This document shows, piece after piece, positions 16,730-42,551 of a stretch of 64,000 bases of DNA; within the stretch, counting starts at the first letter, position 1, and the number at the start of each line of letters is the position of its first letter. A program made the position numbers and the translations under genes. Source of the stretch: Nitrospira japonica (GTDB lineage: Bacteria; Nitrospirota; Nitrospiria; Nitrospirales; Nitrospiraceae); contig NZ_LT828648.1 of NCBI RefSeq assembly GCF_900169565.1, positions 2,888,501 to 2,952,500 on the forward strand, read 5' to 3'. Under the pieces are notes generated by a model. The model saw only the letters and a program-made list of their open reading frames with translations, ran no database searches and had not been told where the DNA came from.

Positions 16730-17923
16730 TCATAGACCGATCATGATCAACTCGAACTTGGCGTTGTAGCCGATCGATGGAGCGGCGTTGGGATCACTGA
16801 TGCGCGTGGAAATAGTGGACGATCCCGGACCGACGGCCAGATAGAACCCGCTGACTGTTTGGATCGTATACGAGCAGTTGGGTGGTTGCTCGACGATCTT
16901 GAATTTTTCCCATGCCTGAACTTGGTGTGCATCCGTATGGAGGTTGTCGCCGCTCGCGAGCCCTCCACCATTCACGGCCGTCACATAATTTCCACTGGAG
17001 GTCTGCAAAGCGTATGTCCCGTCGTTCTGCTTGATCAATTTGAATCTTGATCCCACTTGCAACCCGCTAAAGGCCGTCATGGCCTGACTCGTCCGTCCAC
17101 CTCCACCCAGTGCCGTGAGATAGCTGACAAAATCCCCCTTGCCAGGGACCATGCCGGTTCCGGTCGGCCGGATGGCATATTGATAGCCCGATCCCAGATC
17201 GCCGCATTTTAGGAAATAATAATACTCCCAGGTTGAAGCTTTCGTCGCATCGGTATGGAAAGCATCGTTCGCCTTTCCGCCGCCTCCGAGGGCGGTGAGA
17301 AAGTGCCCATCGTAGGTTTTCATGGTATAGGTGCCAGCCGCGCTCGGGCCGTCCACTCGAAAGAGCGCAATATCCGACTGAGGCGTTTGCAATTCCGTTT
17401 GCACGGGTTGCGTGGCGTTGGGCGGTCCACCAAGCCCGCCCACGGCGCTCACGTAGTATCCGCCGCTCGTCTGAATTGTCGTGAAATCTGGTTGAACAGA
17501 CGCCAGCCTGAACCTCTGATTCGGTCCGAGTACTGAAGGCACGGTGATGACGGCATCGATACTATGGTGTCCCCCGTCCCGCGCAGTAAAGGGAGTGCTC
17601 TGCAAGTACGACCGGATGGCAAACTCTCCCGGAAGGGTGCCGAACGCAGGCGGGTTCGGCGGCACGCTCGGAGTCATCTGTTTGAACTCGAGACCAGGTT
17701 GCAGAACTCTGGGAGCCAACCCACGCTCTTGCACGTCTCCGGCCGGCGGTTCGTTCGGGAGTGCGATGGGCGGCGTCGCTTCCACCGTCGGACTTGGCTC
17801 ATTAATCACCGGGGGTGGGTCGTCGGCGAAATTCACTGCCACGGTCAGCCCAGAGGCGACAGTCGCCCATGCGACAGCCATGCATAATTGTCGTAATCTC
17901 GAAGGGGTTTGATGAAATCGCAT
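16730..17923 (-). CDS. Exported fascin-like beta-trefoil protein with N-terminal QERG motif
   Basis: A 397-residue protein with a leader (1-33), an acidic Pro-rich spacer (34-62) and the motif GDVQERGLA (Arg67-Gly68). About 300 residues of repeated fascin-type trefoil follow, with units such as YYVSAVGGLGG, HFLTALGGGG, SYLTALGGGG and NYVTAVNGGG, often followed by HTDA and a W-E-(K/Y)-F/Y segment. Fascin-like folds in bacteria often serve as carbohydrate- or surface-binding modules. It is related to the lipoprotein at 21162-22394. AAGGAGGA precedes the start. It is the last gene of the minus-strand exported-protein block. Confidence 0.82.
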   Translation of the reverse strand: MRFHQTPSRLRQLCMAVAWATVASGLTVAVNFADDPPPVINEPSPTVEATPPIALPNEPPAGDVQERGLAPRVLQPGLEFKQMTPSVPPNPPAFGTLPGEFAIRSYLQSTPFTARDGGHHSIDAVITVPSVLGPNQRFRLASVQPDFTTIQTSGGYYVSAVGGLGGPPNATQPVQTELQTPQSDIALFRVDGPSAAGTYTMKTYDGHFLTALGGGGKANDAFHTDATKASTWEYYYFLKCGDLGSGYQYAIRPTGTGMVPGKGDFVSYLTALGGGGRTSQAMTAFSGLQVGSRFKLIKQNDGTYALQTSSGNYVTAVNGGGLASGDNLHTDAHQVQAWEKFKIVEQPPNCSYTIQTVSGFYLAVGPGSSTISTRISDPNAAPSIGYNAKFELIMIGL

Positions 17924-18014
17924 GGCAGTTCCTCCTTCATCTCATAAGTCACGGCCCGGACGCGTTCATGCCTCAATGGGTAGTCGCAAGGGATTCGTAT
18001 GAAAGGCTCATCGA

Positions 18015-19412
18015 CTACGGCGTGGTGCCATCCGTCGGATCAAACGGACTCGGTTGCACAATTTCAGGTTCTTCTACTTGGTCTTTCTCAACCCCCCGGC
18101 TCATCACGGCCATGTTGGTGCCGGTCATCGCTCCCGTCGCTGCCACAAGACCTGACGAGACCTGGCAGGTGAATTCACGCGACGTACCGGGTGGGAGTAG
18201 GCCAAAAAAACTGGCGGTATTGCCAGAAATAGGTAGGGACTGCACCTGTGAGCCATTCGCCGTCGTGGTTCTCATCGTGAATCCGGTGAGTTGGGGCGGT
18301 CCAAACTTTGTCGCGGTTTGGTTCTTATCGAGGACGCACATGACGGTTTGCGTCTGACCGGGTTCGCACACGGCGCCTTCTTCGACACCGACGACGTTGA
18401 GCGGACCCACGACATTTCCTCCGCTGGGGTTGAAACAGGCGACCACCATCGTTCCGCGTGCGGAGCTACCGCTCCAGCGCAGGCGGGTGTTACCCGTCAG
18501 TGCGGCATCATTCATTCCCATCTTCTGGAGAATCCATCCGCGGAAATTATAGACATCCGTGAACGTGGCTTCACCGGTTGGGGTCTTACAATCGCTTACC
18601 GTCCCTTGCGAGGCAATCCCCCGGACTGTCGCCCGGCCGTACTCGACCGTGACGAATCCTGATCCGCTGTCGCCTTCACACAACGATGCATTGGCTGCCG
18701 CCGCAGTGATATAGAACTTCGGCGCGAAACTGTCCGGCCCGATAGGTGCTCGGAAAATGGCGAACTGTCCCGCCGGTGTATTGAGGTTGTGACTGAAGTT
18801 GGCCACGGTTCCCACGACCCCTTGGCGGCGCGAATCTCTTGGCAAACCGACGGTCTGAAGATAGGGGGTAATCGAGAAGGGCTGAGTCACTCTAATCAGC
18901 GCGATGTCGTTGAGTTGATCTGAGCTGCTCGATGAATACTGCTCATGGCTGTAGATTCCGCCTGAGCCGGAACCCGCCTGGCGAGTCTCTGATCGGCTCT
19001 GCCCGGTGTATGGATCGGTCCGGGTGTAGGTGACGGTGGCGCCGCTGATCTGCACGCAATGCGCAGCGGTCAAGACCCAGCGTGGATCGAGGAGGACGCC
19101 TTTGCAGGTGAGTCTCGACTGGACACTCACGACCCAGGGATACCTGTAGTCGGGTTCGAATTTTCCTCCCGTAGGCGGCAACACGATCGGCGTTGGGGCG
19201 CTCGGTGCCGTTGGCTGAGCCGTTTTTGACGGTACTCTCCCCGTATCAAGCTGTGCCCGGCTCACCGCGCGTTCTTGGACCGCGTTCGGATCACCCGCCG
19301 ATGGACTTGAAGAAGACGGCTGCCCAACGCAGCCGCTCGCAAGGCCGGTGATCACGATCACCGCGGATAGATACGATTCGATGCTCCGGTTCCTGCGCGG
19401 AATCGAGATCAT
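18015..19412 (-). CDS. Trypsin-like serine protease lipoprotein with two R-G/A motifs
   Basis: The chosen start (ATG 19412, AAGGAGG 7 nt upstream) gives a lipoprotein signal ending LASGC. An alternative ATG at 19454 also has AGGAG. A VQERA motif (Arg48) precedes the S1 domain. The catalytic triad is His118 (TAAHC), Asp169 (NDIALI) and Ser249 (CEGDSGSG). Six residues before the catalytic Ser is Ser243, not Asp, so specificity should be chymotrypsin- or elastase-like rather than tryptic. A beta-rich C-terminal extension of about 170 residues ends with VMSRGVEKD and an acidic tail. It probably sits at the outer membrane or cell surface. Confidence 0.88.
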   Translation of the reverse strand: MISIPRRNRSIESYLSAVIVITGLASGCVGQPSSSSPSAGDPNAVQERAVSRAQLDTGRVPSKTAQPTAPSAPTPIVLPPTGGKFEPDYRYPWVVSVQSRLTCKGVLLDPRWVLTAAHCVQISGATVTYTRTDPYTGQSRSETRQAGSGSGGIYSHEQYSSSSSDQLNDIALIRVTQPFSITPYLQTVGLPRDSRRQGVVGTVANFSHNLNTPAGQFAIFRAPIGPDSFAPKFYITAAAANASLCEGDSGSGFVTVEYGRATVRGIASQGTVSDCKTPTGEATFTDVYNFRGWILQKMGMNDAALTGNTRLRWSGSSARGTMVVACFNPSGGNVVGPLNVVGVEEGAVCEPGQTQTVMCVLDKNQTATKFGPPQLTGFTMRTTTANGSQVQSLPISGNTASFFGLLPPGTSREFTCQVSSGLVAATGAMTGTNMAVMSRGVEKDQVEEPEIVQPSPFDPTDGTTP

Positions 19413-19485
19413 GTTAGGCCTCCTTCTCCAACCAGTTGTATTAAGCCGACGCATGGCAATCTCCTGGATGAGGGTTCTGCTCCTC

Positions 19486-20457
19486 TCAGAATTGATCAAA
19501 CGGCATCAGCGCGCGGATGATCGTGTATGTGATCTCAGCTTCGCAACCGCCGCCAGGACTTGGGCGTCCAGGCGGCCCGCCCGTCTCTTCCTTCAAGAAA
19601 AAGTGATACTTGGTGGTCGGTCCCGGCAGCAAGGCTTTGCCCGACTGCTCTATAGGAGGGGTGTAATCGCCGAGAGGATCGCGCTCGTCAAAGTACACAG
19701 ACGGCTCCATGAGATTGGCCCGCGTACTGATCTCCTTGCGGGTCCAAGAGAACTGGGTGATCCCTCTTGCTTCGCCACGACCGAGTTTGAACTTTTGCTC
19801 ATGGATCTGACGGTCAGGCGAACGCCACTTGAACGTGATGTCGCTTTTCCCAACGGTATCGCATCGGTCAACCATGTAGAATCTCAAATCCGTGACAAAG
19901 ACGTCATAGAGCGGGGTGATCGTGAACTCCTTGTTGATCCCGGTTACTTGCCCATTGGGGACCAGTTCCCTCACAGTAATAACGAGCTTCATCGCCCGTG
20001 GCTCCCCATTCCCTTCAACATCGCGGTACGAGAGGGTCAGGCCGCTGGTGGAACTATAGGTTCGTTTCAGGATCTGCGATCGAAACGGAGAGCTATAGAA
20101 GACTTCGACCTCGATGGGCACCGTCACCGGCAGGTTAGGGGGAATGCGGAGGTTCACGGAGATGCTCTTCGAGGTGACCCGCATCGCGTTGCGGATCGCT
20201 GTTAAACTTGGCGTCGGCGCGCTAAACTTCGGATCGGCCAGTTGAAGCGTGCCCCCCGGCTTCACAAGCCCCGGCAGAAGTCCTCGTTCCTGAATGTCGG
20301 CACCCTCCGCCGGCGGAGGCGACTCTTCGGATATCGTGGGGGCGGTGTCCGGGCTCGCCGGTTCTTCGGCGAAGGCACAGAGCGGTAGCCAGAATACGAT
20401 CGCCCATGTCAGGGTCAGGGCACAAATGGCGTCACGATACGGAACTGATTTCGTCAT
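19486..20457 (-). CDS. Exported hypothetical protein with QERG motif
   Basis: A 323-residue product with a signal peptide (about 1-30), an acidic Pro/Glu spacer and the motif ADIQERGLLPG (Arg58-Gly59). A beta-rich domain of about 250 residues with unknown function follows (NLRIPPNLPVTVPIEVEVFY, MKLVITVRELVPNG). It has few Cys residues and no catalytic motif I can name. GGGAGG lies just upstream of the ATG at 20457; a longer frame upstream has no such site. It lies between the trypsin-like protease and a Cys-containing RRGVE protein on the same strand. Confidence 0.75.
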   Translation of the reverse strand: MTKSVPYRDAICALTLTWAIVFWLPLCAFAEEPASPDTAPTISEESPPPAEGADIQERGLLPGLVKPGGTLQLADPKFSAPTPSLTAIRNAMRVTSKSISVNLRIPPNLPVTVPIEVEVFYSSPFRSQILKRTYSSTSGLTLSYRDVEGNGEPRAMKLVITVRELVPNGQVTGINKEFTITPLYDVFVTDLRFYMVDRCDTVGKSDITFKWRSPDRQIHEQKFKLGRGEARGITQFSWTRKEISTRANLMEPSVYFDERDPLGDYTPPIEQSGKALLPGPTTKYHFFLKEETGGPPGRPSPGGGCEAEITYTIIRALMPFDQF

Positions 20458-20585
20458 ACACACCTCCCAAGTGCCTGAGCGTCTCACGGTCCCAGACCGA
20501 CAGGAGCAGATCAGCATGCCATGCGTCGGCGCGTCGTTTGACGCCCCGAACACCATGTCACTCACCCAGAACGCAAGCCGGATGA

Positions 20586-21050
20586 TCAGGGCTTCTTGCC
20601 GCCACCTTCTCCCTGCGCAGCCAATTCCTTGACCCAATCAGGAACGGGAGTGGGCTCCCCAGCGGTGTCTTCCGCTTTCGAGGTTTCCTCCACGCCGCGC
20701 CGTTGAACACCGGCCATTCCCGCCTGACTCATCGCATTGCCGGACATGCCCGGCATGACTCTCGTTCCCGCCGGTTTCCGGCAGTTGATGACTTGATTGG
20801 TCGAATTATCGACGGTGCAGCAGAGCATCGTGTCTCCGCCACAAAAGAGCACGTGCGTATACGGCTTGTTGCCCATGAGGTCTTGTTGCATTTGATCGTT
20901 GCAGGACGCGCCGAAATTGGTATTGAGGTCTTTGGTCGTGCAACTTTCCGGCGTGCTCTTTTTGGGCTTGGCAAATACCCCGGACGGCAATACGATGCCG
21001 AGGACCAATAGGCCGGTGGCGACGGAGAGAATCAGGCGATGGTGTTTCAT
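20586..21050 (-). CDS. Small exported Cys-containing protein with C-terminal RRGVE motif
   Basis: A 154-residue protein with a signal peptide (1-27, cut near FAKP) and six Cys residues between 37 and 90 (CTTKD, GASCND, FCGGD, LCCT, NCRK), suggesting disulfides. After a Met/Gly-rich linker comes AGVQRRGVEE (Arg118-Gly119) and an acidic 35-residue tail. AAGGAGCGTT precedes the ATG at 21050; the longer frame upstream lacks a leader. Its layout matches the small proteins at 23084 and 24487 (leader, Cys module, Pro linker, RRGVE, acidic tail), though the Cys modules are not alike. Confidence 0.8.
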   Translation of the reverse strand: MKHHRLILSVATGLLVLGIVLPSGVFAKPKKSTPESCTTKDLNTNFGASCNDQMQQDLMGNKPYTHVLFCGGDTMLCCTVDNSTNQVINCRKPAGTRVMPGMSGNAMSQAGMAGVQRRGVEETSKAEDTAGEPTPVPDWVKELAAQGEGGGKKP

Positions 21051-21161
21051 AACGCTCCTTATCGATGGTGAGGATCGAATGGATTCGCCGAGTTCGTTTC
21101 GTTCATGACGGATGACCTGTGTCCAATGGATCTCCGGTATCGCGCTCACCTCCTTGGTGAG

Positions 21162-22394
21162 TTACTGGATAATAGCCGGCGATGCCAGGCCGAAGACGAC
21201 CAGTTGGAATTTTTCATTGGCGGACGGCGCCCCGTCGCGACGCGTGGTCAGTAAGGTGACGCCGGATGAATCCTTGAATATCCCGGAAAAGAAACCGCTC
21301 GAAGTCTGAATCGCATAGGTGCAATTGCCTTGATCGATGATCCGGAATTTCTCCCATGCCTGAACCTGCGTAGCGTCGGTGTGGAAAATGGGAGCGGAGC
21401 CGCCGACGCAAGGACCTCCGAAAAGCCCCCCACAGTCCGGCGTGTAATATTTCCTATCGTATTTCTCGACCTGCCCGCCGCCGCCGAGGGCGGTGAGGTA
21501 GGTCCGGCCATTCGCGGTTTGCAGGGCGTACGTGCCATCGCTCTGGCGGAACAGCTTGAATTTCATTTCCGCTTCGGCCGGCCTCGCGCTCAGGCCGAAT
21601 CCCGGTTTTCCTTCCCAATTGTTGGAAGCCAAGAATTCTCCGTCTGCCGCCATGATCGCGTATTCATAGCCGGACCCAGGATCGCCGCACTTCACGATCC
21701 TAAACTGCTCCCAAGCTTGGATCTGTTTGGCGTCAGTGTGCAACGCATCTTGATACTTCCCTCCGGCGCCGACAGCCGTGAGAAAGTTTCCTTTGATCGT
21801 CCCGATACCATAATAGGTAGGAGGATGGCCGCTCATGTACACCAGCCGGAAACGTTCCCAATCCCTGGGTTGAGTGGCATCGGTATGGATCGCGTTTGCG
21901 GTCATGCCACCACCGTTCACGGCAGTCACATAGTTGCCGTTTGCTGTTTGAAAGGTCTTGTCGTAAGGCGAAGGCGGGGACGCGATGGCAAACTTGAATT
22001 TCTCCCATGCGCCGGCCGACGTGGCGCCTGTAATGACGGTGGGATCGCCGATCCGTCCTCCGCCGTTGATCGCGGTGAGGTAATAGCCTTTGGATGTCCT
22101 GAAGGCAAACTCACCTGGGTACGTACTGGTCAGACCAGTGGACAGCGTGCCAAGGACGGCGGTCTTGCCCTCCAGCACGGCGGGATTGAGCCGGGTTATT
22201 CCGCGTTCCTGAACCTCACCGGTCTCTGCGGGCACCTCGGTAATCGCGGGCTGTTCGTCTGGTATGACGGGAACGTCCATCTGTGAAATGCTCGCCTGTC
22301 CGCGCTCCTTGGGGACCGGTTCGGCAGTGGCGCAGCCGAACGCGAGCAGACAGGCACCGTACAATAACCTGGTCACGAGCGATCTGGTGTTCAT
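21162..22394 (-). CDS. Fascin-like beta-trefoil lipoprotein with QERG motif
   Basis: A 410-residue lipoprotein (lipobox LAFGC, Cys21). An ERG (Arg31) and then GEVQERGIT (Arg64-Gly65) follow in an acidic spacer. The body is two or more beta-trefoil lobes with fascin-type repeats: YYLTAINGGG, NYVTAVNGGG, NFLTAVGAGG, TYLTALGGGG, each followed by HTDA(T/K)Q and W-E-(K/R/Q)-F-R. It is a paralogue of the protein at 16730-17923, which lacks the lipobox. GAGGAGAGGGAA precedes the ATG at 22394. It is probably a surface-anchored binding protein; ligand unknown. Confidence 0.83.
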   Translation of the reverse strand: MNTRSLVTRLLYGACLLAFGCATAEPVPKERGQASISQMDVPVIPDEQPAITEVPAETGEVQERGITRLNPAVLEGKTAVLGTLSTGLTSTYPGEFAFRTSKGYYLTAINGGGRIGDPTVITGATSAGAWEKFKFAIASPPSPYDKTFQTANGNYVTAVNGGGMTANAIHTDATQPRDWERFRLVYMSGHPPTYYGIGTIKGNFLTAVGAGGKYQDALHTDAKQIQAWEQFRIVKCGDPGSGYEYAIMAADGEFLASNNWEGKPGFGLSARPAEAEMKFKLFRQSDGTYALQTANGRTYLTALGGGGQVEKYDRKYYTPDCGGLFGGPCVGGSAPIFHTDATQVQAWEKFRIIDQGNCTYAIQTSSGFFSGIFKDSSGVTLLTTRRDGAPSANEKFQLVVFGLASPAIIQ

Positions 22395-22478
22395 TCCCTC
22401 TCCTCCTCTCACGCCGACGAAATCCATTCGTTAGACCGAGTTGCTCCCGGTCGCTTCCTCCGAATACGCTCCGAATCA

Positions 22479-23087
22479 TTACCGTCTCTGCATCGGCGTG
22501 CACTCGCAACTTGTACTGCCGGAAGGACACGAGCCCTGACAAAATGGAGTCAACAATTGGCATTCCTGCTGGTTATGGCATTCGCATTTCGTGAATGTGA
22601 GAGGCACCTGATAGCTGCATAGATTCGGTGGCAGGGGAGGCATAGCGCCGCGGCTCATCGGGGTGAATTCACAATGGCTGCTGCCCGGAGGGCACGAGTT
22701 GGGAAACAAGGCCGTGAGCGCCTGGCATTCCGTCTGGCTGAAACATTTGCACTGCGTGAGCATCCAGGTCTCCTGATGGCAGAGTTGAGCGGGTGGTTCG
22801 GACGGAGGGAGCGGCTGCTTCCGTTGGAAATCCTTCTTGAATTGTCCGAAGTCGCCCTTCCCAAGGCCTCGCTCTTGCACATCATCGGGCGCCCCCTCTG
22901 TCGTCGATGGCGGAGGACTGATCTCCAGCTGTTGCGAGGGGGCCGACACTTCTTCTTGCCTTGGCGAGATCGGAGTGACGGGCTCATCCGCCCCTTGTGC
23001 TACCGCGCCGGCGAATAATGTCATCGGTATCGCCATGACCAGAAGGTTACGCATTAGTCTCCGAGCAATTTGAGCATTCATCATCAC
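22479..23087 (-). CDS. Exported protein with two Cys-rich repeats, each ending in an M-x-R-(G/R) motif
   Basis: A 202-residue protein with a signal peptide (about 1-32), an acidic Pro spacer and DDVQERGLG (Arg73-Gly74). Two tandem Cys-rich repeats of about 50 residues follow, aligned as TxCxCxxQxECQxLT, then (P/G)SCPxGSxxCE(F/C)TPM. Repeat 1 is followed by MSRGAMPP; repeat 2 ends the protein at TPMQRR. The motif therefore marks the edge of each module. The start overlaps the stop of the upstream gene by 4 bp; three consecutive ATG codons leave the exact start open. Confidence 0.8.
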   Translation of the reverse strand: MMMNAQIARRLMRNLLVMAIPMTLFAGAVAQGADEPVTPISPRQEEVSAPSQQLEISPPPSTTEGAPDDVQERGLGKGDFGQFKKDFQRKQPLPPSEPPAQLCHQETWMLTQCKCFSQTECQALTALFPNSCPPGSSHCEFTPMSRGAMPPLPPNLCSYQVPLTFTKCECHNQQECQLLTPFCQGSCPSGSTSCECTPMQRR

Positions 23088-23521
23088 TTATTCGTTTCCT
23101 CCTGGGGTGGCGCAGTCGACTCCTCACCCTCGACGCCCCGCCGCATGATCGGAGCGTTCATCCCGGCTTTTGGGACAGGGGTTGTTCGCGGAGGAGGATT
23201 TGTCGGCGCGACCTGAAGCTGGCCCCCGTGAACTGCGCCCATATTGGCTTTTGGATTCTTGGGAGTCTGAAAGCTCTCGATTTGCTCACAATCTTTTCCG
23301 CCCTGCGCATTGGGAGCGCAGCACATGTAGTCTCCGCTACCGTTGCACTCGACCCACTGTCCAGGCTTATTCAGACAATGGAAGGCTCCGTCAGGAACAC
23401 CCCCTTTGCATTTATCTGGATTTTTTATGGGTTCCGCTTTGGCCGGTATGGTGTGACTCAGGCACATATACATCAGAAGCATCGCCACACCGCCGCATCG
23501 GATCCAGCATCTGCTCATCAT
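23084..23521 (-). CDS. Small exported Cys-containing protein with C-terminal RRGVE motif
   Basis: A 145-residue protein with a leader (about 1-29), a Cys module (DKCKGG, HCLNK, ECNGSGDYMCCAP, DCEQ), a Pro-rich linker and PIMRRGVEGEE (Arg128-Gly129) followed by a 16-residue acidic tail. AGAGGA lies 7-8 nt upstream of the tandem ATGs at 23521/23518. It overlaps the next gene by 4 bp, so the pair is translationally coupled. The function of the Cys module is unknown; it resembles a small carbohydrate-binding or structural disulfide domain only in general outline. Confidence 0.78.
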   Translation of the reverse strand: MMSRCWIRCGGVAMLLMYMCLSHTIPAKAEPIKNPDKCKGGVPDGAFHCLNKPGQWVECNGSGDYMCCAPNAQGGKDCEQIESFQTPKNPKANMGAVHGGQLQVAPTNPPPRTTPVPKAGMNAPIMRRGVEGEESTAPPQEETNK

Positions 23522-23661
23522 ACGCACCGTCCTCTCTGGCCTTTGGCCTGTTGAAATCTTCGGTTCTCTGGAAAACAATCAGGTCCCCTCATGATTTGCG
23601 GTTTCACTCCTAGACTGGGAGCCAGCCAAGATTTATCTCTCACAGTCCCAGCCCACAGATG

Positions 23662-24381
23662 TCACCTGCCTTCCTTCTCCGAAGATAGAGGTTTCTCAAT
23701 CTCGACCCCGCGACGCTGCAGCACCGGCGCATTTGACTTAGGGAGAACAGAGGGGCGGACGTTTCCTAATTGAGGCTTTTCCTCGAAACAACCGCCGGCG
23801 CAGCCGACGGGTCCTTGCGAGGGAACACACCCATGCACTGCGCTAAATACACACTGTCCCGCGGGGCTAACACACGCGCATACAGGTGACTCTCCAGGAG
23901 CGCCCGTCCCTTGTCGAATGGCGCGCTCTTGCACGTCTCCGGGACCAGTCATGGGGCCCTTTTCTTCTCGCGGCACCGGCGCCGTCTCTTGCGCGCCAGT
24001 ATCTTTCTCCGCCTCACGGTCCCTGGCAGGGGATGGAGTCTGGGAGGGAAGCTCGCCCGCCAACAGCCGCGGAGCGAGCGGCACACTCACAAGACCACCA
24101 GTCAATAAAGCCGTGGTTATTATTGAGATCGTGATCGATCGCACGGCGATCCTCCTAGGCTGGAGAGTAACCACTGGATCTAAAGAAGTTCCGCGTTCTC
24201 GAATCTCGCCTGTAGTGGGGGGCGGAGCATCCTGCTCGGGCGTAAAGGGGACTGACTCCGTGGTCTGAGCTATACTCGTTGGTTGTTCGGCCGTTGCCAC
24301 TCCTGCGAGAGCGATAAGAACCAAGAAGATTCCTGCAGCGATCAAAGTTGAGAAGCTATGAAGTCTCGGTTGCATGGACAT
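23662..24381 (-). CDS. Composite exported protein: two leader-plus-motif units fused in frame
   Basis: The 239-residue frame holds two exported proteins in series. Unit 1 (residues 1-79) has a signal peptide (STLIAAGIFLVLIALAGVATA), an acidic spacer and GEIRERGTS, but then no domain. Unit 2 begins at residue 80 with a second leader (SITISIITTALLTGGLVS), then GDVQERAIR, a Cys-rich module (VCACVSPAGQC...GCAGGCFEE) and a C-terminal VLQRRGVEIE with an acidic tail. A perfect AGGAGG stands 6 nt before a GTG at 24144, so unit 2 probably initiates on its own. Either a deletion fused two genes, or both a long and a short product are made. Confidence 0.72.
   Translation of the reverse strand: MSMQPRLHSFSTLIAAGIFLVLIALAGVATAEQPTSIAQTTESVPFTPEQDAPPPTTGEIRERGTSLDPVVTLQPRRIAVRSITISIITTALLTGGLVSVPLAPRLLAGELPSQTPSPARDREAEKDTGAQETAPVPREEKGPMTGPGDVQERAIRQGTGAPGESPVCACVSPAGQCVFSAVHGCVPSQGPVGCAGGCFEEKPQLGNVRPSVLPKSNAPVLQRRGVEIEKPLSSEKEGR
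24142..24156 (-). promoter_or_regulatory. Internal Shine-Dalgarno and GTG start inside the composite gene
   Basis: On the minus strand AGGAGG (24156-24151) is followed by six bases and then GTG (24144-24142), in frame with the surrounding reading frame and at the beginning of a second signal peptide. Spacing is optimal. It decides that the downstream half can be made as a separate 160-residue exported protein. Confidence 0.75.
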
Positions 24382-24486: not shown

Positions 24487-24942
24487 TTACTTAGACTCAG
24501 GCCCTGTTCCGGATGGATTAGCCATCCCGCCATCCGGCTGCTCACCCTCGACTCCGCGACGCTGAATCGTTCCGGCCGGCGCGGGCACTCGACTGGGGGG
24601 AGGAGTTTTCGGCTGCAGCTGCGGCAGCTCCCCTAGACTCTGAGCGGCGGAAGTACACGTCGGCAACGGGTAATTCGGCAAGCATTTCTGGCAATTGGCC
24701 AATTTCCCTGGGGTGAATGTTTTCCCCCCATCCACGGTGAACCTACAGTCCTTGCCATTCGACATGCAGTTTGTCGTCATTGCCCAAGTCAGCTCCTTCG
24801 CGCTGCCACTGGAAGCCGTACAGGAACACTTGCAATGGGTAGTACTGAACTCCGGAGGGAGTGCGACACTGACCGCTGCCGTTCCCACCAGCATGGTGAG
24901 GCCCAGGGTCCCGACCACGAACACTTTCACGATCGCTCTCAT
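24487..24942 (-). CDS. Small exported Cys-containing protein with C-terminal RRGVE motif
   Basis: A 151-residue protein with a signal peptide (about 1-28), a Cys module (HCKCSCTAS, NCMSNGKDC, NCQKCLP, TCTSA), a Pro-rich linker and GTIQRRGVEGE followed by a 20-residue acidic/polar tail. AAGGAGGAG lies directly upstream of the ATG at 24942, while the longer frame starts with unrelated sequence. The layout is the same as in the proteins at 20586 and 23084. No enzymatic motif is seen. Confidence 0.78.
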   Translation of the reverse strand: MRAIVKVFVVGTLGLTMLVGTAAVSVALPPEFSTTHCKCSCTASSGSAKELTWAMTTNCMSNGKDCRFTVDGGKTFTPGKLANCQKCLPNYPLPTCTSAAQSLGELPQLQPKTPPPSRVPAPAGTIQRRGVEGEQPDGGMANPSGTGPESK

Positions 24943-25049
24943 CGCTCTCCTCCTTGTGATTCTTGGTTCTATTGCGGTTGATACTCGCCTTTCTCTATGA
25001 CCTCTTTCATTCACATGACGCTCTTTTAGCCGTTATGCGAGCATGCAGA

Positions 25050-27455: not shown

Positions 27456-29288
27456 TCATTTCGCTATCTTCTCCATCGGTTCATCCGTCGACCGTGTAAC
27501 GACACCGAATGAAGGTTGGGGTGGACGAGGACTGGGCGAAGGAGCCACCATTGGAGCCGAAACCGGTGAACCGTCGCCCATGCGATCCTCAACGACCGGC
27601 TGAGATTGCTTGCCTAGAAAATTGGTCACGATCACGTGCAACGTTCCGGGATTCATGTCGCGACACTCATCGTCCTTGGAAGGTGTCGCCGGCGATGTCT
27701 CATCGCAAGTTTGAACCGGTCTCGGCGAGGTGGATGGTCGCACTGAAGTCTGCTTGGTCCCGCCAGAGTGGGGAGCGAATGGCGCCGGCTGCGGCCCCAA
27801 CCGTAAGAGTCCTCCGTTCGGGAGCAGGAAGCGGCTGGGTGCGAGAACGGGAGAGGTGCCGCGCGCGCGCACGTCACTTGTCTGCGCAATCGCATAGCGC
27901 GCCCGGCCGTCGGGCTCCAGGAGCAGCAACAGCTGACCGTTTTGCGACTCGGATGGCAGCCAGAGAAGCGCTGTTCCCGTAATGCTGCCATCGTAGACGG
28001 CCGGGTTGGAGGCCACGGTGAAACTCGGAGGGCCGCCATCCGGTTGGATGAGTTGCAGTTGATCGTGCTCGTCCACCACTGCGTATTCCCCGGCCGGCAC
28101 CGTCACCGTGCCTTTCTTGGTTGCGACGAACCGTGCTTGGCTGTCGAGAATCAGGGTCGGAGGAACGGCCGGCTCCGCCTCTCCTTCGACGCCGCGCGGA
28201 ACGACGCCGAATGCGCGCTGGGGCGACGGGGTAGGTGCTGGCTGGGTCGCAGTCTTCTGCGTGGTGGACGGCACATCGATTTTGACCACCGTCCTCTGCG
28301 GCAAGCCACCGAGCTGAATCTGAAAGTTTGAGTTGGGGTAGGGAATTGGAACCGGGCTCGAAGGGGGCGGGGTCTTCACTACCAGAGGACTGGTCGAGAT
28401 GGCGTTCTGTGTTCTAGTCGATCCCGTATTCAACGGCTGCACCTGGGGCATGGCCGGCTTGGTTTGAGGAATCGGCGTTCCGGAGACGACGGACCCGCTC
28501 GTCCGAGGGGTTTGCTGGAGTGGAGGCACCTTTAAAGACGGAGGTGTACCCGAAGGGACGGATTCGGTCGGTGGATAGACCTCCTGGCGATCGTCAGGGA
28601 AGATGATCGTGATGGTGCCGTCGGGATAAATGCGAATACGTGTCTTGTCCGGAAGCTGGACTTCCGCAGCCTTGCTTCCCGAGTCGGGGTGCCCTTGGTT
28701 TGGCAGGAGGGTTGAGAGCGAGGCCCCGGAAGGGAATATGGTCGTCGAATGGCCGATGGCTCCGACACCGTTGGTGTAGATCACCGTCCCATCCGGCAGT
28801 GTCGTCACGGTATCCCCAGATGGAGAAATGAGTGTATTCGTTCCATCGGGTTGCGTGACGGATTGTCCCATTCCGTTCGGACGCTCCGTCACCCGGCCGG
28901 TCGTCGGAAGCGAGATGCGTAGGTTAACCTCGAGGCCGATCGTGATCTTGGTGCCATCTGGCAGTCGATTCGTCGCCCCTCCGTCGGGGTTCGTCGTGAT
29001 CGTGCCGCCGCGGGGCAGTTGCGTATGCGTCGTTCCATCGGGATAGACCGTGTAGGTCACCCCTTCCGGCAATCTCGTAATCAACGTCCCATCCGGCTTT
29101 TTCGTCACGGTGGACCCGCCCGGCAGTTGCGACCGGATGGATCCGTCAGCGAGTTTGGTTTTGATGATCGTCGTTGCGGAGGCTTCCGGCAGAAGCCCGT
29201 TCCATGTTTGGCAGGCCAGTAGGATGATCATGAGTGACAGGCGGGAGAGTGCATGAATCAGTCTAGATGGTGGGAATAGATGCATCAT
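27456..29288 (-). CDS. Exported TCP10-like beta-repeat protein with R-G motifs
   Basis: After the leader (to about residue 40) come some ten short beta repeats of 16-18 residues with the pattern T-x-x-x-P-D-G-T-x-x-T-x-L-P-x-G (residues about 45-230), ending IYPDGTITIIFPDDRQ. This resembles the G-box of the TCP10/CPAP C-terminal domain, which forms a long single-layer beta-sheet. A Pro/Ser/Thr-rich linker follows, then GVVPRGVEGE, a beta domain (VPAGEYAVVDEHDQLQL) related to the end of the protein at 31996, and VRARGTSPV. The start is uncertain: ATGs at 29288 and 29285 follow GGAGG closely, and an ATG at 29309 overlaps the previous stop. Confidence 0.78.
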   Translation of the reverse strand: MMHLFPPSRLIHALSRLSLMIILLACQTWNGLLPEASATTIIKTKLADGSIRSQLPGGSTVTKKPDGTLITRLPEGVTYTVYPDGTTHTQLPRGGTITTNPDGGATNRLPDGTKITIGLEVNLRISLPTTGRVTERPNGMGQSVTQPDGTNTLISPSGDTVTTLPDGTVIYTNGVGAIGHSTTIFPSGASLSTLLPNQGHPDSGSKAAEVQLPDKTRIRIYPDGTITIIFPDDRQEVYPPTESVPSGTPPSLKVPPLQQTPRTSGSVVSGTPIPQTKPAMPQVQPLNTGSTRTQNAISTSPLVVKTPPPSSPVPIPYPNSNFQIQLGGLPQRTVVKIDVPSTTQKTATQPAPTPSPQRAFGVVPRGVEGEAEPAVPPTLILDSQARFVATKKGTVTVPAGEYAVVDEHDQLQLIQPDGGPPSFTVASNPAVYDGSITGTALLWLPSESQNGQLLLLLEPDGRARYAIAQTSDVRARGTSPVLAPSRFLLPNGGLLRLGPQPAPFAPHSGGTKQTSVRPSTSPRPVQTCDETSPATPSKDDECRDMNPGTLHVIVTNFLGKQSQPVVEDRMGDGSPVSAPMVAPSPSPRPPQPSFGVVTRSTDEPMEKIAK

Positions 29289-29305
29289 GGCCTCCGTGGG
29301 ACCCG

Positions 29306-31686: not shown

Positions 31687-31757
31687 GGTCATGCCTCCTT
31701 CCGATATGCGGACTCATCTGTGCTCATGACCATTTCCTTCTGAGCAGTGTGGATCAG

Positions 31758-31995: not shown

Positions 31996-33474
31996 CTATG
32001 GGCCCGAAGGTTGGTGAGGTTGGGTGTGGACGGTACAGGGTACGGGAATCCAGTGCGGACCGGTCGATGCTGGATTGGGCTGACAGGGTGGAGACGAGAC
32101 TCCCCGTGGACTGACGGAAGCTGCCAGTACGGCGGCTTCGATTGTCTTGTCGGGAAGTGGGGCGATGTGATCGACGCTCCTCGGTTTGACTGCGGAGGGA
32201 AAGCCGATGGCATCGAATCGCCTACCGTCAGCCGTCAAGTAGAGAAGATGCATGTCGTCCGATGGCCCGGGAATGACCAGCGCAAGAGTCCGATGAATGG
32301 GAAAGCTGTGCCGGTCCTGCTTGGCATTTAGCAGCACGGTTGACTGGCCTTCTTTGGCAAGTCCGAGTTGAAGGTCCATGATGGGCCCAACTTCATAGGC
32401 GCCGGTCTTGAGTTCGACCGCCTCACCTTTGGCGTCGGTCGCGTGAAAGGAGCGGTCCAGCTTGAGCGCTACCGGTTCGACCATCTCAGGTGTCCGTTCT
32501 TCGATGACGGCCGGATCAGAGGTCTCGGCGGCGGCCTCTGCCGGGGCCTCGTTTCCTTCTTGATTTAAGATCTGCCCATCCTTTTCATCGACCCCTCGCG
32601 AGAAAAGTCCCGAGCGCGCGAGGGCGCCTGTCGATGCTTGGGTCTTGGGTAGTGCGGATTGCGGCTGTGCCTCCATGACGTTCGCGGTCTGCGATTGTGT
32701 CATGACCTGGGACTGCGGTGGCTGGGCCATCATGACCTGCGATGACTGAGATGGTTTGACCATCGGAGCCTGTTGCGGCTCGGTCATCATGCTTTGAATG
32801 CGCTGTTGGTTGCTCATTCGCGGCGATCCTTGCGGGTTTGCGGCTTGATATTGTTTGATCAGTTGCTGTTTCAGCTTTGCAGATAGGGAGTCCTTAGTGA
32901 GGGGAAATGGCTTATCGTCAATCTCAGAGGGGAAGGCCGCCTTCACGTCGGCCGGCACGTACTCGCCAAGGCGCTGGCAAGTTCCGCCTTGAAGCCAGGG
33001 ATCTGCAGTGCAACGGGCTGTCCAATACACAAAGATTCTTCTCTCTCCTGGTCCTTTCATTTGGCGGTTCGGAAAAAATTGTTCATAGTTCTCGACGAAA
33101 AGCGTTTCGACTGCATTCGGACGATCTTGACGCGTCTCCGACGGGTTCCATCGCCCTTCAAAGAACAGGTGAATGACACCATTGTGGTACTGACCTGCCT
33201 GCAAACTGACGGGACACTGCTCTTCGAATGGATATGAGGCAAAGCCCGGTGGGTTAGAAGAAAAGGTCGCCGGTTTTTTCATCACCGGTCCGGGGCAAGA
33301 GAGTCTCACCGTATCGTAAGTACACCCATGGCAAAATAGTAGGTCTCCAAATGCCTTAACTGACGCGGGCGCAGGAACACCGACCAAGAGAACGCTGCCG
33401 ATTACATAGAGAATTAATCTGAGATTTAGTTTTTGCCAGCGCGAGCACTCTGGCGTCAATACTGTCTGTTTCAT
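31996..33474 (-). CDS. DPW-family exported protein with central RGVD motif and beta domain
   Basis: A 492-residue protein with a leader (about 18-40) and the DPW-family domain (PFEEQC, RWNPSETRQDRPNAVE, RCTADPWLQGGTC). A Met/Gln-rich low-complexity linker follows (repeats of QSQVM-type), then GLFSRGVDEKDG, an acidic segment, a beta domain resembling that at the end of the protein at 27456 (LKTGAYEVG...HLLYLTADGRRFD), and a final VSPRGVSSPP. The motif therefore separates two folded modules here. TTGGAGG precedes the ATG at 33474. Function unknown. Confidence 0.77.
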   Translation of the reverse strand: MKQTVLTPECSRWQKLNLRLILYVIGSVLLVGVPAPASVKAFGDLLFCHGCTYDTVRLSCPGPVMKKPATFSSNPPGFASYPFEEQCPVSLQAGQYHNGVIHLFFEGRWNPSETRQDRPNAVETLFVENYEQFFPNRQMKGPGERRIFVYWTARCTADPWLQGGTCQRLGEYVPADVKAAFPSEIDDKPFPLTKDSLSAKLKQQLIKQYQAANPQGSPRMSNQQRIQSMMTEPQQAPMVKPSQSSQVMMAQPPQSQVMTQSQTANVMEAQPQSALPKTQASTGALARSGLFSRGVDEKDGQILNQEGNEAPAEAAAETSDPAVIEERTPEMVEPVALKLDRSFHATDAKGEAVELKTGAYEVGPIMDLQLGLAKEGQSTVLLNAKQDRHSFPIHRTLALVIPGPSDDMHLLYLTADGRRFDAIGFPSAVKPRSVDHIAPLPDKTIEAAVLAASVSPRGVSSPPCQPNPASTGPHWIPVPCTVHTQPHQPSGP

Positions 33475-33589: not shown

Positions 33590-34795
33590 TCACGGCCTCT
33601 TTTCCGTTTCAGCCGGCTCAGCTGAGGGTCGGTCTTCTTTCGTCTCGCCATCGTCGACCCCTCGTGGCCGGATGACGCTGGTGTTGCCCATGCCTTGCTG
33701 CGGTGTCGATTGTGGCCGATAGACACCTGTAGCTTGATTCATGTTCTTCTGTTGTCCGCCTATGCCAAATTGGAGATCTTGGTTCTGTGCATCCTGCGTC
33801 GGAGTGCCAAAGGATGGATGTTGCAAGTAGTACGTGAAACGTACGGGAGCGCTCCAGTCTCCAGCTTTCGGGACTACGATCCGAACACGGATTTCCCATG
33901 TTCCAGGGGCCAGATAAATTTGTGGAGCATCGACTCCCTTCGGCCCTGCGATTACACTCATCGGAGCTCGGTACGTATAAACTGTTTGAACATTTTGTTG
34001 TCTCAGATTCGCTGATGGATTCAGCCATTTCAGTTCGATCTCGGCGTCCGTCCCAGAGAGGAACTGCGAAGGCGCGATCCGAAAGACGCCGTTGCCTTTT
34101 ATGATGAAACCGTTTGGTTTGGGAGAAAGGATGGCCGGCGCATTGGGGAATGCTTGAGTCATTTTCTGGATATCTGTTTGAGCGGTGCCTGGCTTTATCA
34201 AGGGCTGACAGATAAGACCCAAGGCATCTACAAAGAGACCGGCTCGGCCGTGAAAGCCGACGGCCACTAATCCCGTAGGGCAGAAGCTGTCTGATCCGTA
34301 GGGAACAAACTGGCCACCGCCTTCTCCACCTGGGCTGAAGATAAAAAAAGAGTTGAGAGTGTTTGGGATTATGCCTTGGCAGTATGCGTAGAGACGACTC
34401 ACGAACTTATGGTCCGGAAGACCGCCTTCTCCTATGGTATTGTCAAAATCGAGTCCTGCTATCGCGCCACCCAACGCACAGGATGCTGTTCTTGGAGAGC
34501 CTCCGCTGCTGCTCCCGTGTGACCCCATTGTTTGCGGGGCGCCGAAGGTCCGCTTTACAGTTTCAAGTGGTGAACAGATCGGAGCCAGTTGGTCGATCCA
34601 CTTGCCTGCTCGACCTGCCAAGCCGGTGAGATAAGCCCCCTTTGGACACTCGGCCCGAAACAAGGTACCGCCTGGTCCTCCTTGAATGGGCAGATCTGTT
34701 CCTGTAGCCGGTGATGGGGAGCAAACCAATACACTAAAGATGAGAACAGTATATATGGATGCGAAGCCACCACAATGGCGGGATTTCTCACTCAT
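33590..34795 (-). CDS. Exported protein with VMO-I/jacalin-like repeats, Ig-like domain and RGVD motif
   Basis: A 401-residue protein with a leader (about 12-34). Two repeats of a beta-prism type pattern follow: FRAECPKGAYLTGLAGRAGKWIDQLAPIC-like and FCPTGLVAVGFHGRAGLFVD-like, with Cys-Pro-x-Gly, GRAG and a late Cys. This is reminiscent of VMO-I or jacalin-like lectins. The Ig-like domain (IELKWLNPS...GTWEIRVRIV) is shared with the DPW family. It ends with VIRPRGVDDGE and a 20-residue acidic tail (ending AETEKRP). GGAAGGAA precedes ATG 34795. It is probably a surface glycan-binding protein. Confidence 0.75.
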   Translation of the reverse strand: MSEKSRHCGGFASIYTVLIFSVLVCSPSPATGTDLPIQGGPGGTLFRAECPKGAYLTGLAGRAGKWIDQLAPICSPLETVKRTFGAPQTMGSHGSSSGGSPRTASCALGGAIAGLDFDNTIGEGGLPDHKFVSRLYAYCQGIIPNTLNSFFIFSPGGEGGGQFVPYGSDSFCPTGLVAVGFHGRAGLFVDALGLICQPLIKPGTAQTDIQKMTQAFPNAPAILSPKPNGFIIKGNGVFRIAPSQFLSGTDAEIELKWLNPSANLRQQNVQTVYTYRAPMSVIAGPKGVDAPQIYLAPGTWEIRVRIVVPKAGDWSAPVRFTYYLQHPSFGTPTQDAQNQDLQFGIGGQQKNMNQATGVYRPQSTPQQGMGNTSVIRPRGVDDGETKEDRPSAEPAETEKRP

Positions 34796-35015
34796 GGGAG
34801 TTCCTTCCACATCCTGGTCCTTCGCTCGTAAGTCGTTCGTTGTCAATCACTGGTTCAGTGTCCTGATCTGGGAAACACTTACTGGTCCAAACTATTGGGC
34901 GAACAGTCACGCGAGATACCACGCCTCTCCCCCAATCGACTACGGTGAAGTGCATTGACTGACTAGCTAGACCCAGTGTGATGAGCCATTCTCCTCAGAG
35001 GACGTTCGCTCTTCC

Positions 35016-37608: not shown

Positions 37609-37844
37609 GATTCCTTGCAACCGCCGCGAAGCAGATTGCTCAACTTCCGTCTGAGGGATCTCTGTGGTGGCGGACGAAATGATCATGACGTCTCTTGGTT
37701 GGATGAGAAGTCAGAAAGATCGAAGCACACTCCCTTGCCGGCCTGATAATTGCCTTTGCTGATTCGAACAGGGTCTTTATCAATTGTGCCGTTCATATTG
37801 ACCACCAGATCTCTAATTCATGTGACCGTTGTCGACGGTACAAG

Positions 37845-38855: not shown

Positions 38856-38891
38856 GCGTGCACCTCAGGGTTCAGGATTCCTTGCCCTTCA

Positions 38892-40397
38892 TCATGGTGC
38901 CGCCGGTGCAGCGACTGGTTCGTTCAGGTCCTGTCTGGTCTCTTCGTCGATGCTGCGTGGCATGATGATGCGAGGGGGTGGAAACGGTTGGATGGCCTGG
39001 AAGGTGTTGGATCTCAGATCGCCCAAGGCATTGACGGGGTCATCGCCTGCCGGTCCTCGCAACGTCAGCTTGACAATTGACGGTTGCTGGTCTGAACGCG
39101 TCAAGTCAGGAACCGTAATGCACTGTACGGCGTTGTAGGAGCCCGGCAGCGCGGGACGTCCCAGATCACCCGGCAACGCCGGCAATTTAGGAGGCGGCGA
39201 CCTAAATTCATATACCAGTCGCCGCCAGGAAAGGGTTCGCTTCAACGCACGCGCCCCGCAATAGGGACAACTCGGCTCCGAATACTTGTCGTACACGACG
39301 GCTGGCGATGTGCCTTTTGCAAAGGCACGAGCGGGCAAAGTTGGGAGACCGGGAAACGATCCATGGATCTCCATCAGCTGCCAATAGAGCATAAGATCGG
39401 GGCCGTCGAACTCTTCAACACTTGCAGACACATCTTCTAGAACCTTGTTGCTCACACGCTCATCCTGAACTGGATCGGACGGCAACAGCATGGCGCCGTT
39501 CGGGCAGTAGGTATTGTCCTTCTTGTTGAATTTGAACTCGCCTGCTTTGAATCGATAGCCTCGGGTTTTCGCGGCTGCAATGAATTGATCCAGGGCCTGT
39601 CCCGTCAGTTCATAGGTAACGAGTTTTCCGGGCTCTAAAACCACGCTGATCCCATGCGCGTGCGAGACGCATCCGTTCAGCGCGAGACTTGTCTGTATAT
39701 AAAGATGGTGGGTGCCGTAGTGCGGTTCGGTTAGCGTAAAATTAAGCGTCAGTACCGGCGTGGTGATGGGCAGCCAGGCAACGTTTTTCTTGGCAAACGC
39801 CACATCGGGGTTGAACTGTGATTCAGGATAGCGCTCCGCTGCGGAAAATTCCGTGAGGCGGTAAAAAGCGGGCTTTTCTGAGAAACCCGCGACAACACTA
39901 ATCGTCCGCTTGGTCGTCTTCCATCCGCCCGGCACTGGCACACCGACCACTTCAAGGTTAGTAATCCTGTCACAACCGCTGCTTCCTCCGGTGGCTGTCC
40001 CTGCAAATCCACCACAGTCGCTTGGCAGGGGAGTGGCCTGACCAGTTTGCAAGAAAATCTGACGCACGAAGTTGGCACCGTTGGTCATGGCGACCGTGGC
40101 TTGAGCGTTGGCATAGCCGTTTCTTGAAGTACGAACCGTGGTCGAACCTACTGGTAGAGAAGCTGTGTAGCGGCCGTTCTGATCTGTCATTTTCTGCACG
40201 CTTTGTCCGGGCATTGCGAGACAAAGGTTGACGTTCGAAATCGGCGTTCCGTTCTGGTCCGTGACGATGATCTGCACAGTGCCGGATTCAGGCAAAAGTC
40301 CCGAAGCGGTTGTCGCCGTAAGAACGAGCACGGAACTGAATGATAAAACACGCCAAGCAAAGATTGTTCGTTGCGCTTTCGTCATGCGGGACGGCAT
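38892..40397 (-). CDS. Exported carboxypeptidase-regulatory-like protein with C-terminal RSID motif
   Basis: A 501-residue protein with a leader (about 8-32). A CarboxypepD_reg-like beta-sandwich follows (about 37-125: VTDQNGTPISNVNLCLA, TDQNGRYTASLPVGS). A large domain of unknown type with a C-P-Y-C pair (EPSCPYCGARAL) comes next. Near the C-terminus IIMPRSIDEET replaces the RGVE motif by RSID, followed by a 19-residue tail. GGGAGA precedes ATG 40397. It is probably a surface or periplasmic binding protein; the C-P-Y-C pair might bind metal or form a disulfide. Confidence 0.75.
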   Translation of the reverse strand: MPSRMTKAQRTIFAWRVLSFSSVLVLTATTASGLLPESGTVQIIVTDQNGTPISNVNLCLAMPGQSVQKMTDQNGRYTASLPVGSTTVRTSRNGYANAQATVAMTNGANFVRQIFLQTGQATPLPSDCGGFAGTATGGSSGCDRITNLEVVGVPVPGGWKTTKRTISVVAGFSEKPAFYRLTEFSAAERYPESQFNPDVAFAKKNVAWLPITTPVLTLNFTLTEPHYGTHHLYIQTSLALNGCVSHAHGISVVLEPGKLVTYELTGQALDQFIAAAKTRGYRFKAGEFKFNKKDNTYCPNGAMLLPSDPVQDERVSNKVLEDVSASVEEFDGPDLMLYWQLMEIHGSFPGLPTLPARAFAKGTSPAVVYDKYSEPSCPYCGARALKRTLSWRRLVYEFRSPPPKLPALPGDLGRPALPGSYNAVQCITVPDLTRSDQQPSIVKLTLRGPAGDDPVNALGDLRSNTFQAIQPFPPPRIIMPRSIDEETRQDLNEPVAAPAAP

Positions 40398-40438
40398 CGT
40401 TCATCTCCCTTCTCAGTCTACTGACTCGCTTGTACCGT

Positions 40439-41907: not shown

Positions 41908-41969
41908 GACGTGCTTCCTTTCTTGTGGAGCCGTGCCCACATCGCCTCTGATGCTTCGCCTGTCCCTCG

Positions 41970-42551
41970 TCAGTTCCCAAGGAGCGTGGTGCTACCGGTG
42001 ACGATGTCTCCGATCACCGACGTTCCGACGACCACGCCCCCCTGCACGGTCCCGATGACTTGCCCCGGGCGGATCTGTACCCGGTTTCCTACCGTGGCGA
42101 GCGGCATGCCGCCTCCGTTGAATTTGACGACCCCTCCTTTCAGATCCAGCGACCCCCCGGCTTCCAGAGCGGCGGAGCTTCCCGATCTGATTGTGGTTGT
42201 CATGGACGCGCGGGCATCGAGAGAGGTCCCGGCAGCGATGGTGACGCTCTTGGTCGATTGCAGCGTCAACGCTTCCGACGTCACGATCGTCAACGTCGGG
42301 GCTTGAAGCGTCACCCCGCCTGGCGTCAGCTTGATGACCGATTGTAGGGCGGCAAGTTGAGCGGTCAGCAGTTCGACTTGCTGCTGCAATTTCGCCAATC
42401 GCATATCCGTGGCCGACATGGACCCTTCGGCCTGGAGCCCTTGCCTCACTCCGGTGTTCGGCACGGCGCGTTCCTGTATGTCATCTGCCGCATGGGCAGG
42501 TATCACCAGAAGTAGAGCCACCATCAACAACCATTGTGTCCTGACGCGCAT
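41970..42551 (-). CDS. Exported spike-like beta-helix protein with QERA motif
   Basis: A 193-residue protein with a signal peptide (1-21) followed almost at once by DDIQERAVP (Arg28-Ala29). A short coiled coil (MRLAKLQQQVELLTAQLAALQS) comes next. A repetitive beta region follows (VTLQAPTLTIVTSEALTLQ, SVTIAAGTSLDARAS, SLDLKGGVVKFNGG), similar in rhythm to the trimeric beta-helix of VgrG/gp5 phage spikes. AGGAGG precedes ATG 42551. The coiled coil plus beta-helix suggests a trimeric surface fibre. No T6SS genes are nearby. Confidence 0.75.
   Translation of the reverse strand: MRVRTQWLLMVALLLVIPAHAADDIQERAVPNTGVRQGLQAEGSMSATDMRLAKLQQQVELLTAQLAALQSVIKLTPGGVTLQAPTLTIVTSEALTLQSTKSVTIAAGTSLDARASMTTTIRSGSSAALEAGGSLDLKGGVVKFNGGGMPLATVGNRVQIRPGQVIGTVQGGVVVGTSVIGDIVTGSTTLLGN

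Follow-up and report, generated by a model that had tools for sequence, protein, structure and literature searches.

Why do sixteen exported proteins of mostly unrelated fold, encoded in one block of the Nitrospira japonica genome, carry the same short motif centered on an arginine? The stretch that we analyzed (the window) comprises 64,000 nucleotides of NZ_LT828648.1, positions 2,888,501 to 2,952,500; window coordinates refer to that stretch, and open reading frames (ORFs) are named after their start coordinate in it, such as 16730 or 18015. In motif strings, a downward arrow marks the predicted break after Arg (P1). We consider it likely that caspase-fold proteases with Arg specificity, encoded at this locus and exported, recognize the motif as (V/I)-x-x-R↓(G/A/S) and cut there. 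The best candidate for the cutting enzyme is the metacaspase encoded at 7523-9802, and a WD40-C14 protein encoded at 44760-47873 may take part as well.

An earlier note on this DNA had listed the sixteen proteins, and all of them were found in place with the motifs described, including internal copies of the second form in 27456 and 31996. Form 1, [VI][QR]ER[GA], occurs at 8 sites in 7 proteins (two in 23662), and form 2, [VILMF]xxR[GS][VI][ED], at 12 sites in 11 proteins, 27456 bearing in addition a related C-terminal copy, VVTR-STDEP. The two forms share a core, with V or I four residues ahead of the break, Arg directly ahead of it, and a small residue (G, A, or S) after it, and are unified by the pattern (V/I)-x-x-R-(G/A/S), usually with a hydrophobic residue next. 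Hydrophobic leaders are present on all sixteen ORFs, on some only once an over-long predicted start is trimmed. The proteins had been called unrelated, which holds for most of them, with beta-trefoil, trypsin, carboxypeptidase-regulatory, and small Cys-rich folds among the carriers, but not for 16730 and 21162, which are homologous, nor for the homologous trio 30481, 31996, and 33590. A Pfam search of the sixteen proteins found no C14 (caspase) domain in any of them, and the candidate substrates scanned matched no informative NCBIfam model and few Pfam domains.

The motif is far more frequent than expected by chance and specific to this region of the chromosome. The block's exported proteins contain R[GS][VI][ED] 12 times, where residue shuffles gave 0.7, and [VI]xxR[GAS] followed by a hydrophobic residue 19 times, where shuffles gave 3.3, while ten random 20-kb stretches of the same genome gave values near or below chance (4 versus 2.9 and 9 versus 15.3). 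A search with profile hidden Markov models (HMMs), of the kind that the earlier note had proposed, used 22-residue windows against the 4.08-Mb genome and yielded significant matches confined to a 25-kb block, where it recovered 13 form-2 and 8 form-1 sites; the next best matches had E values of 0.21 and 0.056. A form-1 profile widened with relatives additionally matched a second caspase locus at 351 to 360 kb of the same genome.

Form 1 in most cases follows the leader at a distance of some tens of residues and does not, as had been supposed, open the mature part. Form-2 sites are followed by tails of 13 to 36 residues after the Arg that are net acidic and not hydrophobic, in agreement with the earlier observation that no membrane segment follows the motif. 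The hydrophobic segment and basic tail of the PEP-CTERM, GlyGly-CTERM, MYXO-CTERM, and LPXTG signals do not accompany the motif, and NCBIfam sorting models gave zero matches among the ten motif proteins scanned. The open PubMed Central literature that we searched contained no description of the motif, of the beta prodomain presented below, or of a natural substrate set of a bacterial metacaspase, exported or otherwise.

All sixteen carriers are encoded on the minus strand. Form 1 is found in an exported beta-trefoil/fascin-like protein (16730..17923; GDVQER67↓GL, kept in orthologues), a beta-trefoil-like exported protein (21162..22427; EVQER75↓GI), an exported Cys-rich protein (22479..23087; DVQER73↓GL), and two further exported proteins (19486..20637, DIQER118↓GL; 41970..42806, DIQER113↓AV, in the latter straight after the leader). 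The trypsin-fold lipoprotein (18015..19499) combines form 1 (AVQER77↓AV) with form 2 (AVMSR468↓GVE), and the exported protein at 23662..24381 has form 1 twice (EIRER63↓GT and DVQER153↓AI) and form 2 once (VLQRR224↓GVE). Between its two form-1 sites, the latter protein (23662-24381) has another hydrophobic stretch that resembles a leader, and its order of leader, form 1, leader-like stretch, form 1, and form 2 gives the impression of a fusion of two exported proteins. Form 2 is carried by small Cys-rich exported proteins (20586..21149, GVQRR151↓GVE; 23084..23578, PIMRR147↓GVE; 24487..25014, TIQRR153↓GVE), by the exported proteins at 29306..30931 (FVIPR528↓GVE, 13 residues from the C terminus) and 30481..31692 (MIRMR378↓GVE), by an exported jacalin-like protein (33590..34846, VIRPR395↓GVD), and by an exported CarboxypepD_reg protein (38892..40397, IIMPR481↓SID). 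The remaining two contain, besides form 2, a beta domain with a site of its own: the exported repeat protein at 27456..29309 has VVPR372↓GVE, the beta domain (amino acids [aa] ∼374 to 494) with DVRAR483↓G, and C-terminal VVTR606↓STDE, and the exported protein at 31996..33474 has GLFSR293↓GVD, the beta domain (aa ∼324 to 444) ending in AVKPR432↓SV, and then VSPR457↓GV.

The beta domain provides a third context for the core, which in several proteins terminates a domain of ∼110 residues (aa 324 to 432 of 31996, for instance). AlphaFold predicts it confidently as all beta, with ten strands and a predicted local distance difference test (pLDDT) score for the block of ∼90 or more through the core, and places the site directly past the last strand, in a disordered exit where model confidence drops. 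Among 72 distinct copies, 70 have a residue at this position and in all 70 it is Arg, no other column being as well conserved; V or I stands at P4 in 60 of 69 copies, and R, Q, or H at P3, S or P at P2, and G, A, or S at P1' predominate, all figures being drawn from an HMM alignment made without selection for the motif. The domain usually follows the leader directly, with a start no later than residue 60 in 46 of the 72 copies, and precedes cargo of 26 unrelated families (single linkage), an anatomy typical of a pro-domain. Together with its 26 cargo families it looks like an undescribed pro-domain family. Matches in the Protein Data Bank were unconvincing both with Foldseek (best E value of 0.017, template modeling score of 0.25) and with VIA-align (best Z score of 3.6, root mean square deviation of 3.8 over 70 aligned residues).

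The motif had been read as a sorting tag. The sites lie near N termini, internally, near C termini, at the exit of the prodomain, and, as shown below, in the stalk of an anti-sigma factor, and because of this distribution a protease site fits far better than an address tag. The earlier note had also proposed that absence from orthologues would speak against a processing or sorting site. The motif is instead retained, despite changed surrounding linkers, in orthologues from genomes G002, G003, G005, G094, G121, G259, and G289; the trypsin-fold lipoprotein 18015, for example, keeps VQER↓A near the N terminus and (V/I)(M/L)SR↓G(V/I)E near the C terminus in 5/5 orthologues (49 to 56% identity), and exceptions are few, such as 38892 in G005. 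Conservation in orthologues and co-occurrence with caspase-family genes both uphold the central idea of a common signal on mostly unrelated exported proteins.

Genes for the candidate protease track the motif across an even set of 296 Nitrospirota genomes. The beta domain is present in 12 of these, and homologues of the metacaspase 7523-9802 in 13, namely 11 of the 12 beta-domain-positive genomes and 2 of the 284 others (Fisher p = 2.9e-17), the latter two being G214, where the match lies at a contig edge, and G290, where it is weak. Homologues of the WD40-C14 protein occur in 10 of the 12 beta-domain genomes and, as more distant relatives, in 6 of the 284 others (p = 4e-13). Since C14 proteins at large occur in 140 of the 296 genomes, the association is subfamily specific; the co-occurrence with caspase genes that the earlier note suggested thus stands for two particular C14 subfamilies and not for caspases in general. 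Form-2 profile matches were obtained in 7 Nitrospirota genomes, all with the beta domain, and form-1 matches in 8 beta-domain genomes, besides two weak, solitary ones in frames of very small size. In three of the five positive genera (g2, g3, and g5), many sister species have neither enzyme nor motif, a pattern suggesting that the two were gained or lost together more than once. Metacaspase relatives also stand beside beta-domain proteins in metagenome-assembled genomes (MAGs) of a candidate Zixibacteria (L124) and of a gammaproteobacterium (L116), the spread of the beta domain outside Nitrospirota being judged only from genes neighboring metacaspase relatives; the L116 metacaspase shares 55% identity with the query and may owe its place in that MAG to erroneous binning.

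The same genome has a second locus of this kind. Three of the thirteen C14 matches in this genome lie at 335 to 375 kb among exported proteins with a sister motif, which reads VESR↓G in five proteins and also takes the forms IRPR↓GVEGD, VKSR↓T, VQSR↓A, and IQSR↓G. At this locus (L009 14846-20000 plus L010 1-6400; ∼350 to 361 kb), VESR↓G is followed by a similar Gln/Pro-rich segment. Genome G005 has both motif types, VQER↓G and VETR↓G/IESR↓G, within one island. That each locus has its own site variant, VQER↓G here and VESR↓G at the second locus, suggests co-evolving protease-substrate sets. Caspases in general were rejected as the partner of the motif, as four other caspase regions (L011 to L018) showed no enrichment and 128 genomes are C14 positive and beta-domain negative. 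In G002, form-2 sites also turned up in small frames well away from the main island (C1:172242-172301 and C1:919988-920493); some genomes may thus have a scattered set of substrates.

The metacaspase (7523..9802, minus strand) consists of a leader, a C14 domain (aa 47 to 298; Pfam C14, E value of 7.6e-25), and a DUF4384 domain (aa 556 to 639, Pfam). Among solved structures, its closest relatives are yeast Mca1 (E value of 7e-22), a trypanosomal metacaspase-1-like set, AtMC4, AtMC9, and TbMCA2, and by every sequence feature tested, it is a true C14B relative. The catalytic dyad H125/C182 is invariant in 7 homologues. The substrate-pocket residues of TbMCA2 are Asp95, Ser156, and Asp211, in addition to C92 (PMC4357240). 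D69, S123, and D180, likewise invariant among homologues of the metacaspase, correspond to the S1 residues D95, S156, and D211 as read from the conserved sequence around each residue, while the fourth, C92, is replaced by Ser; the AlphaFold model of the whole protein had a pLDDT of 50 and was not used. AtMCA-IIf prefers I or V at P4, a basic residue at P3, Pro, Tyr, or Phe at P2, and Arg at P1, and CrMCA-II a basic P3, Ala, Thr, or Ser at P2, and Arg at P1 (PMC10896300). The pattern of the beta-domain sites, V/I-R/Q-S/P-R, resembles a mixture of the two preferences. The metacaspase bears copies of the motif itself around DUF4384, at R529 (VGTR↓GI), R669 (VGTR↓GV), and R688 (ATR↓GI), and R529/G530, R669, and R688/G689 are invariant in the homologue alignment. 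PADLOC returned only generic caspase and HEAT/ARM models and assigned no defence system.

The gene run that the metacaspase shares with an extracytoplasmic function (ECF) sigma factor (10536..11123, minus strand; Pfam Sigma70_r2/r4) and an anti-sigma factor (9874..10539, minus strand), whose gene sits between the two, extends the motif to a regulator. The anti-sigma factor has a zinc-finger domain (Pfam zf-HC2), one transmembrane helix, and an extracytoplasmic, periplasmic domain, the architecture, together with the adjoining ECF sigma gene, of anti-sigma factors subject to regulated intramembrane proteolysis. In such proteolysis, site-1 proteases cut anti-sigma factors just outside the membrane. 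This is where the motif lies, in a short variable stretch shortly after the transmembrane helix: (I/V)-x-x-R-(S/G)-(V/I/L) is present in 11 sequences (the window protein, with ISTR↓SVD, plus ten homologues at 31 to 69% identity), and its Arg (R144) is invariant. The metacaspase would probably trigger cleavage of the anti-sigma factor at this candidate site. The divergent partner of the sigma gene encodes a DUF4384 lipoprotein (11290..12990, plus strand) with VYPR↓SV, and IYPR↓GV or PVIPR↓GV in homologues. The divergent promoter region between the two (11124-11289) is strikingly conserved, also in L110, L111, L137, and L114, with the blocks AAGGTTCA..ATTGTAG, GGGTCAA, CTATTGAGG, and TGTGYTASAGCA. 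Autoregulation by the ECF factor was rejected, as these conserved upstream blocks look like ordinary divergent -35/-10 elements, and the intergenic regions before the sigma gene shared neither a GGAAC-type promoter nor an ECF-type -35 element; the sigma factor could not be linked to the promoters of the block either.

Several points weigh against the proposal that the locus proteases cut at the motif. The motif, its conservation and genomic specificity, the co-occurrence, the intact catalytic and S1 residues, and the positions of the sites are observations, whereas cleavage, the enzyme responsible, the compartment, the sequence of steps, and the use of the mature proteins are inferred. The preference at P4 in forms 1 and 2 is partly imposed by the search pattern, and form 1 has Q-E at P3-P2, unlike the basic P3 of known metacaspases. 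The co-occurrence counts are phylogenetically non-independent, the positives amounting to five genera. Two C14 enzymes are associated with the motif, so the assignment of the enzyme is tentative, and neither is present throughout: G091 and G245 have the beta domain and the metacaspase and no WD40-C14 orthologue at the threshold used, and G289 has motif proteins and the WD40-C14 protein and no metacaspase match (90 contigs, 90% complete).

The strongest alternative is that the WD40-C14 protein (44760..47873, minus strand) is the main processing enzyme and that the metacaspase handles only the anti-sigma factor and itself. The protein is exported and caspase-like, its dyad H864/C922 is invariant, its C14 domain is very conserved, and a site, KVQRR341↓GNE, lies at the junction; its gene flanks the substrate block in N. 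japonica, G002, G003, G094, and G289, the last being the genome with motif proteins that gave no metacaspase match. On these grounds it remains a candidate as the second enzyme. G091 and G245 are hard to reconcile with a main role, however, and the phylogenetic profile of the metacaspase fits better (p of 3e-17 versus 4e-13), so we regard this division of labor as rather unlikely.

Many secreted proteins are cut after Arg by trypsin- or subtilisin-like enzymes, and the block itself encodes a trypsin-fold protein, so that another Arg-specific protease, from elsewhere in the cell, might do the cutting with the caspases as passengers. We find this improbable, as the phylogenetic profile singles out the metacaspase. 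The trypsin-fold protein 18015 was rejected as the processing enzyme: by sequence it has Ser at position 189 (ASLCEGDSGSG; Ala in G005) and no equivalent of the Arg-binding Asp189.

A true sorting system, in which a caspase-fold transpeptidase of the PorU or GPI transamidase type would cut after Arg and join the proteins to a surface anchor, would account for the pairing of many tagged exported proteins with one dedicated caspase-fold enzyme, and an apolipoprotein N-acyltransferase gene (36064-37686; Lnt, TIGR00546) does lie amid the exported proteins and lipoproteins of the block. Yet the sites are N-terminal or internal as often as C-terminal and include the anti-sigma stalk, and no anchor-making genes were recognized among the block genes scanned, which makes this reading quite improbable. 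Finally, that the motif is a functionless inherited leftover, spread with terminal segments by duplication or recombination among neighboring genes, finds some encouragement in the adjacency of the genes and the paralogy of some carriers but is very improbable, given that the core is retained while its flanks diverge, recurs in three distinct settings as well as in the anti-sigma factor, and has as its Arg the most conserved column of an otherwise diverse beta domain.

Our working model of cleavage by the locus proteases is the following. The substrates would cross the inner membrane by means of Sec leaders, several as lipoproteins, and the metacaspase would cut them after Arg outside the cytoplasm, where it is perhaps activated by Ca2+ like other metacaspases. 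A cut at form 1 would detach the acidic Pro-rich spacer on the N-terminal side of the mature part, which in lipoproteins would also come free of the membrane; a cut at form 2 would trim the acidic C-terminal tail; and a cut at form 3 would release the cargo from the folded beta prodomain. The metacaspase probably also cuts itself around DUF4384, and it may cut the anti-sigma factor of its operon outside the membrane, a site-1 cleavage that would lead through regulated proteolysis to release of the ECF sigma factor and would couple enzyme activity to gene expression. We tentatively propose, at somewhat less than even confidence, that the locus forms an island complete in itself: a single exported metacaspase would process a whole set of secreted pro-proteins whose cargo can be exchanged, would activate itself, and would signal to transcription by cutting the anti-sigma factor of its own operon, being both a secretome maturase and a site-1 protease.

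The mode of action closest to that of the proposed system is the processing of fimbrillin by Arg-gingipain. This exported caspase-fold, Arg-specific protease of Porphyromonas gingivalis reportedly removes an N-terminal part of lipoprotein fimbrillin precursors. Gingipains belong to family C25 and cut far more broadly, and their substrates are not known to share a comparable tag. With the metacaspases of MEROPS family C14B (yeast Mca1, AtMC4, AtMC9, and TbMCA2), the enzyme shares homology, the His/Cys dyad, the acidic S1 residues, and a site consensus like that of AtMCA-IIf, whereas it differs in being exported, fused to DUF4384, encoded in a gene run with an ECF sigma and an anti-sigma factor, and neighbored by a block of likely substrates. 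The sporadic pairing of a short signal on many proteins with one dedicated protease recalls exosortase/PEP-CTERM, rhombosortase/GlyGly-CTERM, and myxosortase/MYXO-CTERM (PMC1569441, PMC3237569, PMC11980579), but here the signal has neither transmembrane segment nor basic tail, the sites lie at either end or internally, and the candidate enzyme is a soluble cysteine protease whereas theirs are intramembrane. Polymorphic toxins likewise use a clan CD peptidase, a caspase-like releasing peptidase, to free exported cargo, with peptidase and cargo in one polypeptide (PMC3482391), whereas the enzyme considered here would act in trans on many proteins.

Other features of the window include three paralogous exported proteins of the block that are without the Arg-Gly motif (35016-36053, 37845-38855, and 40885-41940), two of which, with relatives in G003 and G005, share a tail, (I/V)QKxPKMFGQ, that may be a second C-terminal signal. 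A phage-type integrase, a primase-like protein, and small ORFs at 54465-62285 suggest a mobile element near the far end of the island.

Homologues of caspases are widespread in bacteria, as in the 140 of 296 Nitrospirota genomes counted above, and tend to be treated as enzymes of cell death, for most of which no natural substrate is known. With likely substrates encoded beside the enzyme and cut sites readable from sequence, the purpose of a bacterial metacaspase becomes directly testable. Metacaspase genes in operons with a sigma-70 family factor have been described in Myxococcus, Anaeromyxobacter, Haliangium, Sorangium, Ralstonia, and Fibrobacter, and no mechanism was given for the link (PMC3501461). 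The locus of N. japonica has the same pairing and differs in that the anti-sigma factor carries a site, which suggests a mechanism and offers an explanation for the recurrence of such operons. If our proposal is true, a protease would run the maturation of secreted proteins at this locus, and its substrates could be identified directly from the genome.

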